NCBI RefSeq assembly: GCF_003726095.1
Contig: NZ_CP026031.1
Location: 4,032,001 to 4,096,000 of the forward strand
Direction of reading: 5' to 3'
Source: Niallia circulans
Lineage (GTDB): Bacteria > Bacillota > Bacilli > Bacillales > Cytobacillaceae
DNA length: 64,000 nucleotides
Of the stretch, positions 57,893 through 64,000 are shown piece by piece; position 1 is the first letter of the stretch, and every line of letters begins with the position of its first letter. The notes beneath the pieces are model-generated. The model saw nothing but the letters and a program-made list of their open reading frames with translations, ran no database searches and was not told where the DNA came from. The position numbers were made by a program, and so were the translations under genes.

Positions 57893-58208
57893 GAACGAGA
57901 GCTTGCTTACTTTCTTCTTTAAAACTAAACGAATAGATAATATCAATCTCAAATCGTTCCATTTTTGAACCACAGACTTTTTTTAAAATTACTATAATGA
58001 AATTGTGAAAGCGTTATATTAGAGCTTAAAGGGAGGAGTGTTTAAACGAGATGAATAATAATAATGAGTTTTTATGGGGATCAGCTACTGCAGCTTATCA
58101 ATGTGAAGGAGCATGGAAAGAGGATGGGAAAGGTTTAAACGAATGGGATAGTTTTAATCATAAGAGTCCATTGAATATTTTGAATGTAAATGGTGATGTT
58201 GCAAGTGA
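57893..58208 (+). repeat. Copy B: intact promoter region and gene start matching copy A
   Basis: The functional counterpart of 56114-56392, covering the GH1 upstream region and the first 53 codons. It contains TGAAAGCGTTATAT near 58006-58019, a partial match to the CcpA cre consensus (first ten specified positions fit, the last two do not). The two copies are about 1.78 kb apart in the same orientation. Confidence 0.8.
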
Positions 58209-59460
58209 CTTTTATCACAGATATAAGGAAGATATTGATTTAATGGCAGAAGGAAATCAAAATACTTACCGCTTTTCGATTTCCTGGGCTCGTATTATTC
58301 CTAATGGAGTCGGTGAAGTGAATGTAAAGGGAATTGAATTTTATAATAACGTTATCGACTATTGTTTGGAAAAAGGCATTATTCCAAATGTTACGTTATT
58401 CCATTATGATCTTCCAAATGAAATGGCAAAGATTGGTGGATGGGAAAATCGAAAAGTTGTGGATGCCTTTAATGAATATGCAAAAGTATGCTTTGAACAT
58501 TTCGGGGATCGAGTTAAAATTTGGTCTACTATTAATGAGCCAAGGTATTATGCATATTGCAGCTATATAGTAGGAAACTATCCGCCAAATTACAAAGCAG
58601 ACTTCGGACGTTTTTGGACAGTAGTTTATAACCTTATGCTAGGGAGTGCTAAGGCTGTTCAGACGTATAAAAAATTAAGTTTGGATGGGAATATTGGTGT
58701 TGTTCATGATAACGGTAATGTGGAGCTAGATCCTACTACAAAAGAAAAAGGACTAGTAAAACTAAGAGCGGATATTTTTTATAACCGAATTATACTAGAT
58801 ACAGCCGTATTAGGAAAATTGCCTGCCGAGTTAATAGCAGTTTTAGAAGACAATAATGTTAGTACAACGTTTATTCATGAAGAGGATTTTGTTGAATTTG
58901 CAAGAGGAAAGATTGATTATATTGGATTAAACCTATATAACCGTCAATATGTAACAGATTATTCTGAGGGTGAGACGGAAGTTTTTCACAATAATAAAGG
59001 AAAAGGCTCCAATTCCAAGGAAGGCATTCGTATTAAGAATATGTTTGAAACTTCATTTGACCCAAAAGTAAAAAGGAATCTTTGGGGCAGGGAAGTCTAT
59101 CCCAAATGTATGTATAATGCACTGATGGAAATTAAAGAAAAATATGGTGATATTTTGGTCTATATCACTGAAAACGGACATGGTCAATATGAAACCCCGG
59201 ATGAAAATGGCTATGTTGAAGATAAAGAGAGAATTAAATTAGTAGGAGAGTTTATTGACTATATGCTAAAAGCACGTGAAGAGGGGGTCAATGTCCAAGG
59301 TTATTATATGTGGTCAACAATGGATATATATAGTTGGATAAATGGCTATGAAAAAAGATATGGTTTAGTTCGAGTTGATTTTGAAAATAATCATAAGCGG
59401 ATTCCAAAGGAAAGTTACTACTGGTTTAAAGACTTAATAGCAGCAAAAAGAAATATTTAA
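58051..59460 (+). CDS. GH1 6-phospho-beta-glycosidase (LacG/BglA-like)
   Basis: 469 aa, full family length. Acid/base Glu163 lies in STINEPRYY and nucleophile Glu374 in YITENGHG. S428, W429, K435 and Y437 in [12 protein letters not shown] fit the phosphate-binding pattern of 6-phospho-beta-galactosidase LacG in spacing and even numbering, so it cleaves phosphorylated disaccharides or glycosides brought in by a PTS. Galactoside versus glucoside cannot be decided; the adjacent beta-glucoside-type PTS favours glucosides, Trp429 the galacto form. Cytoplasmic. AAAGGGAGGAGTG lies upstream of ATG. First gene of the accessory catabolic locus. Confidence 0.9.
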
Positions 59461-59527
59461 AATAATGTTTGTTCTAAGTAAAAGAATATAAAAAAAATTA
59501 ATGTTTTACTATTTATAATCCAAACTG

Positions 59528-59590
59528 AACCTACAAGGTTTTATAAAGATTCATAAATACTTTTGATATCTTGTAGGTGGATTGTATTTT
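59528..59590 (+). terminator. Hairpin after the GH1 gene
   Basis: CCTACAAG (59530-59537) / CTTGTAGG (59570-59577), with TCCA (59519-59522) / TGGA (59578-59581) as an outer arm, followed by TTGTATTTTAC. It could be a terminator, or a leader structure for the PTS gene. No BglG-type RAT antiterminator sequence was recognised. Confidence 0.5.
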
Positions 59591-59658
59591 ACAAAATTCC
59601 ACTTAAAGTTCGGAAAGTAGTATAAGTTATTCGTTTCAATATATTTTGTTTTTGGAAA

Positions 59659-62792: not shown

Positions 62793-62804
62793 AATAAGGA
62801 ACTG

Positions 62805-63317
62805 ATGATAATTATGTTTAAAAATATGTTTATGAAAAAAGTTGAATTTTCAAAAACGATCGAATTAAAGGCATATGCAACAGGTAGTATAATGAAGCTA
62901 GAAGATATTCCTGATCCTGTTTTTGCAGAAAAAATGATGGGTGATGGCATTGCCATTGTGCCAGCTGAAGGAAATATAAGTTCTCCAGTAAATGGGGTTA
63001 TCATGCATGTTTTTCCCACAAAACATGCCATTAGCATTAAAACTGCAAATGGTGCTGAAATCTTACTCCATATTGGATTGGAAACCGTTTCTATGAACGG
63101 GGAGGGATTTACTGTGCATGTTACAGAAGGAAAAAAGGTTAAAGTCGGAGATGCGCTTGTAACTGTTGATCTAGATATGGTGAAAAAACGAGCAAAAAAT
63201 ACTGTTATTCCAATAATTATTGTGAATACAAAGGAAATGCTGAAAATTGATAAGCCATTACTATCGGGAAATGTTACTATAGCCAAAGAGACAATCTTAG
63301 CAGTTACAGCAAAATAG
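62805..63317 (+). CDS. PTS glucose-family IIA protein
   Basis: 170 aa. Crr-like IIA domain with the phosphate-accepting His89 in EILLHIGLETVSMNGEGF and the supporting His74 in PTKHAISI. It passes phosphate from HPr to the IIB domain encoded at 59833. It starts 12 bases after the M81 stop codon; AAGGA lies 4 bases before ATG 62805, and ATG 62814 is an alternative. Its presence as a separate gene completes the split IIBC + IIA transporter. Confidence 0.9.
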   Translation: MIIMFKNMFMKKVEFSKTIELKAYATGSIMKLEDIPDPVFAEKMMGDGIAIVPAEGNISSPVNGVIMHVFPTKHAISIKTANGAEILLHIGLETVSMNGEGFTVHVTEGKKVKVGDALVTVDLDMVKKRAKNTVIPIIIVNTKEMLKIDKPLLSGNVTIAKETILAVTAK

Positions 63318-63437
63318 TCATTATTAATAGTAAAAAATAAATGGTAGGTCAATGGCATGCAGCAGGGCATATGTAAAATGTATTATAGTAGAAACGTGCT
63401 GTTACTAATAACGTAGATGGAGAAAGGATATATATAT

Positions 63438-64000
63438 ATGAAGTATAATTCAAAAAATGTACAGTTGAGAGAAATGGAAGCACCAATGCCTGATTGTAGT
63501 AGAAAACCGTTATTAATTGATGATGAAACGATAAAGACTAGATATGAAAATGTATTACAAGAGATGAGAGTGGATGGGCTTGATGCGTTATTGGTATATG
63601 CAGATCTTGAGCATGGCGGAAACTTTGAATATTTAGTGGGATTTGTTCCAAGATTTGAAGAAGCTATATTGGTTCTTCACTCTAAAGGCGATGCCTTTCT
63701 AATCTTGGGAAATGAAAACCTTAATAAGGCACAATACTCTAGAATACCAGCACAAGGAATACATTGTCCGCACTTTTCCTTACCCAATCAGCCTATGGAA
63801 CCCGATACTCCATTTTCAAGCGTCTTTCTTAAAGCAGGAATCCGAGAATCGATGAAAATTGGTTTAGTGGGATGGAAGCACTTCACAAGTAAAGTTGAGA
63901 ATAATCGAAATTTCTTTGATACTCCTTCTTTTATTGTGGATACGATCAGAGATATTGTTGGGAAGGAGGGTTCCCTAACCAATAGAACAGATATTTTCAT
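63438..64000 (+). CDS. M24-like peptidase (Xaa-Pro peptidase/creatinase fold), truncated by window end
   Basis: 187 codons are visible, without a stop. Only the N-terminal domain is present: TRYENVLQEMRVDGLDALLVY with ADLEHGGNFEYLVGFVPRFE matches the creatinase-like N domain of M24 proteins. The catalytic pita-bread domain with its metal ligands would lie beyond the window, so activity cannot be judged. AGAAAGGA lies 9 bases before the ATG. It is 120 bases after the IIA gene in the same direction and probably belongs to the same locus. Confidence 0.75.
   Translation, partial: MKYNSKNVQLREMEAPMPDCSRKPLLIDDETIKTRYENVLQEMRVDGLDALLVYADLEHGGNFEYLVGFVPRFEEAILVLHSKGDAFLILGNENLNKAQYSRIPAQGIHCPHFSLPNQPMEPDTPFSSVFLKAGIRESMKIGLVGWKHFTSKVENNRNFFDTPSFIVDTIRDIVGKEGSLTNRTDIF

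Follow-up and report, generated by a model that had tools for sequence, protein, structure and literature searches.

A phosphotransferase system locus of Niallia circulans linking GH1, M81-family and M24-like genes: a putative operon for nitrogen-bearing sugar compounds

We analysed 64,000 bases of Niallia circulans DNA (positions 4032001-4096000 of a single-contig genome 5,175,203 bases long; 'the window' below means this whole stretch). Running over its right-hand end is a locus in which genes for a GH1 glycosidase, the IIBC protein of a phosphotransferase system (PTS), an M81-family hydrolase, a PTS IIA protein and an M24-like protein lie in head-to-tail order on the + strand, 58051-64844. 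The linkage of the M81, M24-like and PTS genes recurs in other bacteria and is real. The explanation we prefer, held with about as much confidence as doubt, is a catabolic operon that brings a beta-glycoside, or a close sugar derivative, with an amide or related C-N bond into the cell through the PTS and breaks it down there. The linked set suggests a hitherto unrecognised way of taking apart nitrogen-bearing sugar compounds; a literature search found no description or substrate of an M81/M24-like/PTS set, most subscription papers being outside its coverage.

RESULTS

Layout of the locus

Coordinates of open reading frames (ORFs) are in window numbering, and genes past 64000 were read from the continuation of the genome. 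The features are:

58051-59460, +, GH1 glycosidase of phospho-glycosidase type (469 aa; Pfam GH1 465 bits; Ser428)
59514-59586, +, strong RNA hairpin between GH1 and IIBC, a terminator or attenuator candidate (fold z -4.2)
59833-61251, +, PTS glucose-family IIBC (472 aa; PTS_EIIC 110 bits, PTS_EIIB 43.5 bits; Cys26 kept)
61338-62792, +, M81-family hydrolase (484 aa; zinc-site residues E11, H95, D131, H133, H155)
62805-63317, +, PTS IIA of the glucose family, a gene of its own (170 aa; PTS_EIIA_1 168 bits)
63417-64844, +, M24-like (pita-bread fold) protein, cut by the window at 64000 (475 aa; two metal-ligand Asp replaced)
64977-65762, -, RpiR-family regulator gene, convergent with the operon (HTH_6 match)

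The original prediction had five genes head to tail with the M81 gene between two halves of one transporter, and both the ORF map and Pfam, in which the GH1, IIBC, M81 and IIA scores all exceed the model cut-offs, agree with it. Past 64000, where it had proposed to look for the rest of the operon, the M24-like gene is completed to 64844 and the opposite-strand RpiR-family gene follows. The gaps between genes are 86 bp (IIBC to M81), 12 bp (M81 to IIA) and 99 bp (IIA to M24-like).

Linkage of the M81, M24-like and PTS genes

Of 7990 candidates scored in a protein search with the M81 sequence, 1456 were relatives, and the best 120 relatives were listed. The M81 protein used as a single query found no related loci whereas an alignment of 27 of these 120, used as a query on contigs of GTDB species, did: 71 stretches matched the pattern, 63 encoded a relative and these represent 48 distinct loci. 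Partner genes were counted within 8 kb of each M81 cluster after sixteen query proteins had been mapped by tblastn, a gene split in two pieces being counted as two.

Across all 48 clusters, many of which are on cut contigs, IIBC was found in 31, GH1 in 31, M24-like in 27 and IIA in 16, and 45 hold at least one of IIBC, GH1 and M24-like. Where at least 7.9 kb was available on each side (12 clusters), IIBC was present in 12, GH1 in 11 (10 if a fragment of 85 residues in locus L073 is left out), M24-like in 10 and IIA in 9. Carriers include Bacillaceae, Oceanobacillus, Enterococcus, a Collinsella, two Enterobacterales (one of them Enterobacter) and, from the gut, Erysipelotrichaceae (Holdemania) and Lachnospiraceae.

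Control loci were taken around distant M81 proteins (25-28% identity) at up to about 20 kb, some being short or ending near the M81 gene (L119, of 4.6 kb, L122, L124 and L151). None of 19 such loci from the window's own taxonomic family (26-28% identity), and none of 8 from a phylum sample, matched the window IIBC, GH1, M24-like or IIA protein, although two (L123 and L124) matched other query proteins (S9, AbrB). Similarly, M81 and PTS proteins had no match in any of the 11 loci fetched around distant relatives of the M24-like protein (26-33% identity; 3 contigs shorter than 9 kb). Chance or artefact as the cause of the grouping is ruled out by these two sets of controls. In the phylum sample of 398 genomes, besides the window genome, 11 matched the M24-like profile (E <= 1e-60) and 13 the M81 profile (E <= 1e-30), with none in both; the 19 of 24 matched loci that were fetched are all distant relatives (25-33%), which makes the sample uninformative on co-occurrence.

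Distances between loci were also correlated from gene to gene (M24-like with M81, r 0.82; M81 with IIBC, 0.66; M24-like with IIBC, 0.60; permutation p <= 0.0005 in each case) among the 17 of 49 loci, window included, that have all three genes near full length, and shared host ancestry is still contained in these correlations. A neighbourhood survey was the test that the original prediction had named as able to refute it, and the outcome supports the link: M81 and M24-like genes usually occur with PTS genes, and the controls lack them.

The M81 protein

The M81 protein matches both Pfam domains of its family strongly (PF07364, 246 bits against a cut-off of 22.8; PF07171, 119 bits against 27.2). 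The five zinc-site residues are kept in all 113 aligned M81 sequences and correspond to the zinc-site set of MlrC, namely Glu56, His150, Asp184, His186 and His208; MlrC cleaves the Adda-Glu bond (PMC12474180). The M81 protein is a probable zinc-dependent amide-cutting enzyme. It is not MlrC proper, since it misses the NCBIfam MlrC cut-off (62.9 bits against 999), and its identity to MlrC is 19%. It also differs from MlrC in having basic residues specific to its clade: R148, H224, R229, H230 and H271 are near-invariant in the clade and 27 outgroup M81 sequences mostly differ at these positions. Five such residues would suit a phosphorylated substrate. A further candidate, R151, was dropped as 21 of the 27 outgroup sequences have Lys there.

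The GH1 and PTS proteins

The phosphate-site motif of the GH1 protein, 11 residues long, has Ser at residue 428, and Ser is found in all 43 aligned sequences, two of which are counted twice (from the overlapping loci L077 and L079). This Ser is a mark of 6-phospho-glycosidases; ordinary beta-glucosidases have Glu there. The best NCBIfam phospho-glycosidase model scores 433 bits, under its cut-off of 610. The solved GH1 relatives among the matches listed include 6-phospho-beta-galactosidases and therefore specificity for glucose and for galactose are not distinguishable for this protein.

The PTS set of the glucose superfamily is complete, with EIIB, EIIC and EIIA domains all present. Cys26 of IIBC, the Cys of the EIIB domain, is conserved in 29 of 29 sequences. 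The nearest model is that of the beta-glucoside PTS, TIGR01995 (370 bits); the full IIABC cut-off of 614.7 is not reached, the IIA domain being a separate gene. The IIA protein clears only the NCBIfam subfamily-domain model TIGR00830. At equivalog level none of the four complete genes (GH1, IIBC, M81, IIA) reached an NCBIfam cut-off and no substrate name was obtainable.

In one alternative the amide is on the sugar and not on the aglycone, M81 deacylating a PTS-imported N-acyl sugar or disaccharide and GH1 acting afterwards. In its favour, RpiR-type regulators, such as the one adjacent to the operon, are common with amino sugars, and the M81 zinc-site residues are kept. The chitobiose operon chbBCARFG, which includes the deacetylase ChbG (PMC9402603), is a case of this kind and shows that it may be the sugar that carries the amide. 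However, the IIBC protein is closest to the beta-glucoside model and scores 132 bits with the N-acetylmuramate PTS model, and the linked M24-like gene would be left without a role. We consider an N-acyl sugar unlikely as the substrate.

The M24-like protein

With the window M24-like protein as query, neither Pfam nor NCBIfam gives a match at E <= 1e-3. Its kinship with M24 is visible via relatives, profile searches and a predicted structure, which has the pita-bread (M24) fold; many of the 120 relatives listed carry PF00557 and the relative in locus L166 matches Pfam Peptidase_M24 (27.1 bits, cut-off 23). A profile alignment was made to the prolidase 1pv9, in which the five compared positions are the dinuclear-metal ligands (Asp, Asp, His, Glu, Glu). 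Both Asp positions are replaced, by Thr284 and Ser293, and one Glu is Asp390, while His361 and Glu404 are kept. No row of an 18-sequence family alignment has Asp at either lost position. Because the two metal aspartates are replaced throughout this alignment, the protein is probably no ordinary dinuclear metallopeptidase. The M24 assignment of the original prediction agrees with the fold, but its peptidase label is not supported.

Precedents exist for M24-family proteins with non-peptidase chemistry, creatinase and DoeA (PMC3187862). The predicted structure matches the folds of creatinase and ectoine hydrolase; in the profile search DoeA is matched weakly, and just over the N-terminal part (E 0.16). 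Distant relatives of the M24-like protein (32-33% identity) adjoin putative sugar ABC importers, recognised by eye, in five of the seven loci inspected (L107, L109, L111, L114, L115), and in L111, L115 and L116 such a relative lies beside M20 or amidohydrolase genes.

The original prediction in its narrow form, a glycosylated amino acid or small peptide whose peptide bonds both M81 and M24-like proteins cut, has to be weighed here. M81 and M24 are named as peptidase families, and three Holdemania clusters contain a gene with S9-type matches, which fall below the cut-off. Against this, the M24-like family lacks Asp at the two prolidase metal-aspartate positions, and we know of no sugar PTS that imports peptides. 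Cleavage of peptide bonds by both proteins seems improbable. An operon acting on a glycoside with an amide or related C-N bond, with the M24-like protein in some other reaction, is the explanation that we carry forward, and it is compatible with a compound in which the sugar is linked to an amino acid, an amide or a small peptide.

Variation among the clusters

The following observations weigh against our explanation. The cluster counts are not independent, as they include related genomes, cut contigs, and three Holdemania species and several metagenome-assembled genomes that are repeated. Of these 48 clusters, 17 have no GH1 in the available sequence, among them L041, L055 and L071, and L073 has only the fragment. 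In these four loci IIBC, M81 and M24-like genes are accompanied by a DeoR or RpiR gene, and an intact GH1 is not seen. L041 is from Enterobacter; L055 is from Izhakiella, where the contig begins just before IIBC; L071 is from Enterococcus, and there IIBC is preceded by a BglG gene. Two of the 12 full-flank clusters, L043 and L077 of Enterococcus malodoratus, have no M24-like gene, and L078 lacks it too. In three clusters (L054, L056 and L072) IIBC, GH1 and M24-like are all unseen in the available sequence; L056 has two M81 genes with flanks of 3.6 and 8.5 kb, about 12 kb. Not every one of the 43 GH1 sequences has both catalytic Glu residues: it is absent from the acid/base position in two and from the nucleophile position in two. 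In the window itself GH1 is set apart from IIBC by 372 bp that include the strong hairpin, as stable a fold being found in none of 200 shuffles, so GH1 may have its own transcript. An orphan M24-like gene without M81 occurs in the nearest relative (G167, below). The target of M81 might be other than an amide.

The genomes of these four loci without an intact GH1 carry GH1 matches (7 for L041, 2 for L055, 25 for L071 and 5 for L073, pieces included; the window genome has 15), so GH1 could be supplied from elsewhere in the genome. GH1 is a usual member of the set that can be missing locally.

Several clusters from Holdemania, other Erysipelotrichaceae or Lachnospiraceae have up to seven M81 genes and several GH1 genes, along with AEC, AbrB or MFS carriers and genes of the HAD and PEP-mutase families. 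In Holdemania the M81 genes are in tandem (six in L036, six in L037, and five in L038, one of them in two pieces), with an M20-type amidase and the S9-like gene alongside. The M20-type gene is present in three Holdemania clusters and the one scanned belongs to the hydantoinase/carbamoylase family (NF006771, 417 bits against a cut-off of 399). In L078, within an Erysipelotrichaceae PTS gene run, a DUF7916 protein (6980-7897; 400 bits) is encoded between M81 and IIA. L166, fetched as a twentieth locus from the window's taxonomic family along with the 19 controls, has an intermediate M81 (42%) with M24-like (50%), IIBC (36%) and IIA (39%) close by. The gene run there (722-10199) is M81, a LysR regulator, M24-like, a 436-aa protein that belongs to no known family, IIBC, an OYE-family reductase, an EamA carrier and IIA. 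This run may hint at an unsaturated aglycone. A ceramidase-type amidase was considered for the 436-aa protein, but Pfam and NCBIfam gave no match and the idea was rejected.

Another alternative is that the locus is at heart an aryl-beta-glucoside operon of the ordinary kind, in which M81 and M24-like are additions that process the released aglycone and have nothing to do with sugar release. This would be in keeping with the AEC, AbrB and MFS carriers of other clusters, with the reductase and EamA carrier of L166 and with Enterococcus malodoratus, which keeps GH1 and has no M24-like gene in view, but L041, L055 and L071 retain M81 and M24-like next to IIBC with no GH1 in view, the reverse of an optional add-on, and we judge it the least probable of the alternatives.

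Distribution, transfer and flanking sequence

Enterobacter, Izhakiella and Collinsella carry IIBC, M81 and M24-like genes at 52-62% identity to those of the window, which points to joint transfer of the three. No match was found in a plasmid collection, either by DNA or by protein at E <= 1e-60, and nothing in the E. coli genomes matched the M81 gene of Enterobacter.

Within the genus of the window the locus appears as an island. The upstream ribosomal-protein pair (rplM-rpsI, named by eye) is present in 13 of 13 genomes, while none of the 12 other genomes has an M81 match, and six of seven relatives compared have no match from 55959 to 68223. The nearest relative, G167, has an open M24-like frame of 468 aa (L142:9471-10877, - strand) and a shortened RpiR gene, and no GH1, IIBC or M81 there. 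At 56113-56392 the window also contains a decayed, incomplete duplicate of the GH1 promoter together with the 5' end of the coding sequence (75% identical to 57892-58208), and G167 has a stretch corresponding to it. Given that the relatives lack M81 and mostly any match here, that G167 is partial and that a decayed GH1 copy remains, the island is variable, having been gained in the window lineage or lost in others.

Directly upstream of the locus is a CPBP/Rce1-like gene (56430-57245), whose broad superfamily also includes MlrA of microcystin breakdown. It looks like an incidental neighbour because G167 keeps this gene without having M81. Between it and GH1 there is a degraded short coding-like stretch (57344-57640; DUF488-like by eye). 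Promoter and terminator scans were not clearly above shuffles (41 against 46.5 and 5 against 4.1). Two types of catabolite-repression site were tried and left unused: the strict consensus gave 2 matches in 20 kb where 0.34 were expected, one within the IIBC gene (L002:3917-3931) and the other far away, and the palindromic form gave one two-mismatch site at 59659-59672 where 1.25 were expected within three mismatches.

DISCUSSION

If the locus is an operon for an amide-bearing glycoside then its steps would be as follows. IIBC and IIA, going by their families, would import the compound and phosphorylate its sugar. M81, as a putative zinc amidohydrolase, would cut an amide either on the phosphorylated conjugate or on the aglycone. 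The M24-like protein, predicted to have a repurposed pita-bread fold, would catalyse another reaction on this nitrogen-bearing part, and GH1, given its phosphate-site motif, would release the sugar 6-phosphate. The adjacent RpiR-type gene is the likely regulator; other clusters have regulators of BglG or DeoR type nearby. In gut anaerobes the multiplied M81 copies might each handle a different variant of the conjugate. The substrates considered were pantothenate glucoside, vicine, benzoxazinoid glucosides and hydroxycinnamoyl amide glucosides; no evidence separates them and none is proposed.

A broader version of this scheme is offered as a tentative suggestion, one that we doubt more than we believe. 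M81 and M24-like proteins might form a two-enzyme unit that has moved between phyla with a dedicated PTS and dismantles amide-bearing glycoside 6-phosphates as a whole class. The M24-like protein would then be a new enzyme class, in which the peptidase metal centre has been lost and the pita-bread fold reused on sugar-linked nitrogen compounds, and the tandem M81 copies of gut bacteria would be tuned to members of the class.

Family M81, which in the literature found is mainly tied to microcystin, gains a second setting here. The set also draws attention to a family with the pita-bread fold from which two of the peptidase metal ligands have disappeared; distant members of this family, too, are encoded close to importers of sugar type. 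Should an amide glycoside from the diet or from plants prove to be the substrate, the gut-anaerobe clusters would mark an unrecognised breakdown route.

Among known systems, a bgl-type beta-glucoside PTS operon consists of IIBC/IIA, a GH1 6-phospho-beta-glucosidase and BglG or another regulator. The window locus resembles it in the nearest IIBC model, in the IIA gene and in the GH1 phosphate-site motif, and BglG or RpiR genes are near several clusters. It differs in that loci of the window type add the M81 hydrolase and the M24-like protein, which in some loci are present without a visible GH1.

The chitobiose operon is similar in logic, combining PTS genes (chbB, chbC and chbA) with an amide-cutting enzyme and a phospho-glycosidase (chbF is a phospho-glucosidase), but it has no M24-like gene, ChbG is from a family unrelated to M81, and the PTS and glycosidase families differ as well. 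Creatinase and the ectoine hydrolase DoeA/EutD share the M24 fold and perform other chemistry, at 13-15% identity to the window M24-like protein.

What the sequences show is the linkage, the residues of the M81 zinc site, the replacement of two metal ligands in the M24-like protein and the phosphate-site motif of GH1; that M81 would cut the amide of the conjugate, and that the M24-like protein would perform a further non-peptidase step, is what we infer. On these comparisons the general logic of a PTS, an amide-cutting enzyme and a phospho-glycosidase is precedented, while the families and their combination differ from both the chb and the creatinase/DoeA precedents.

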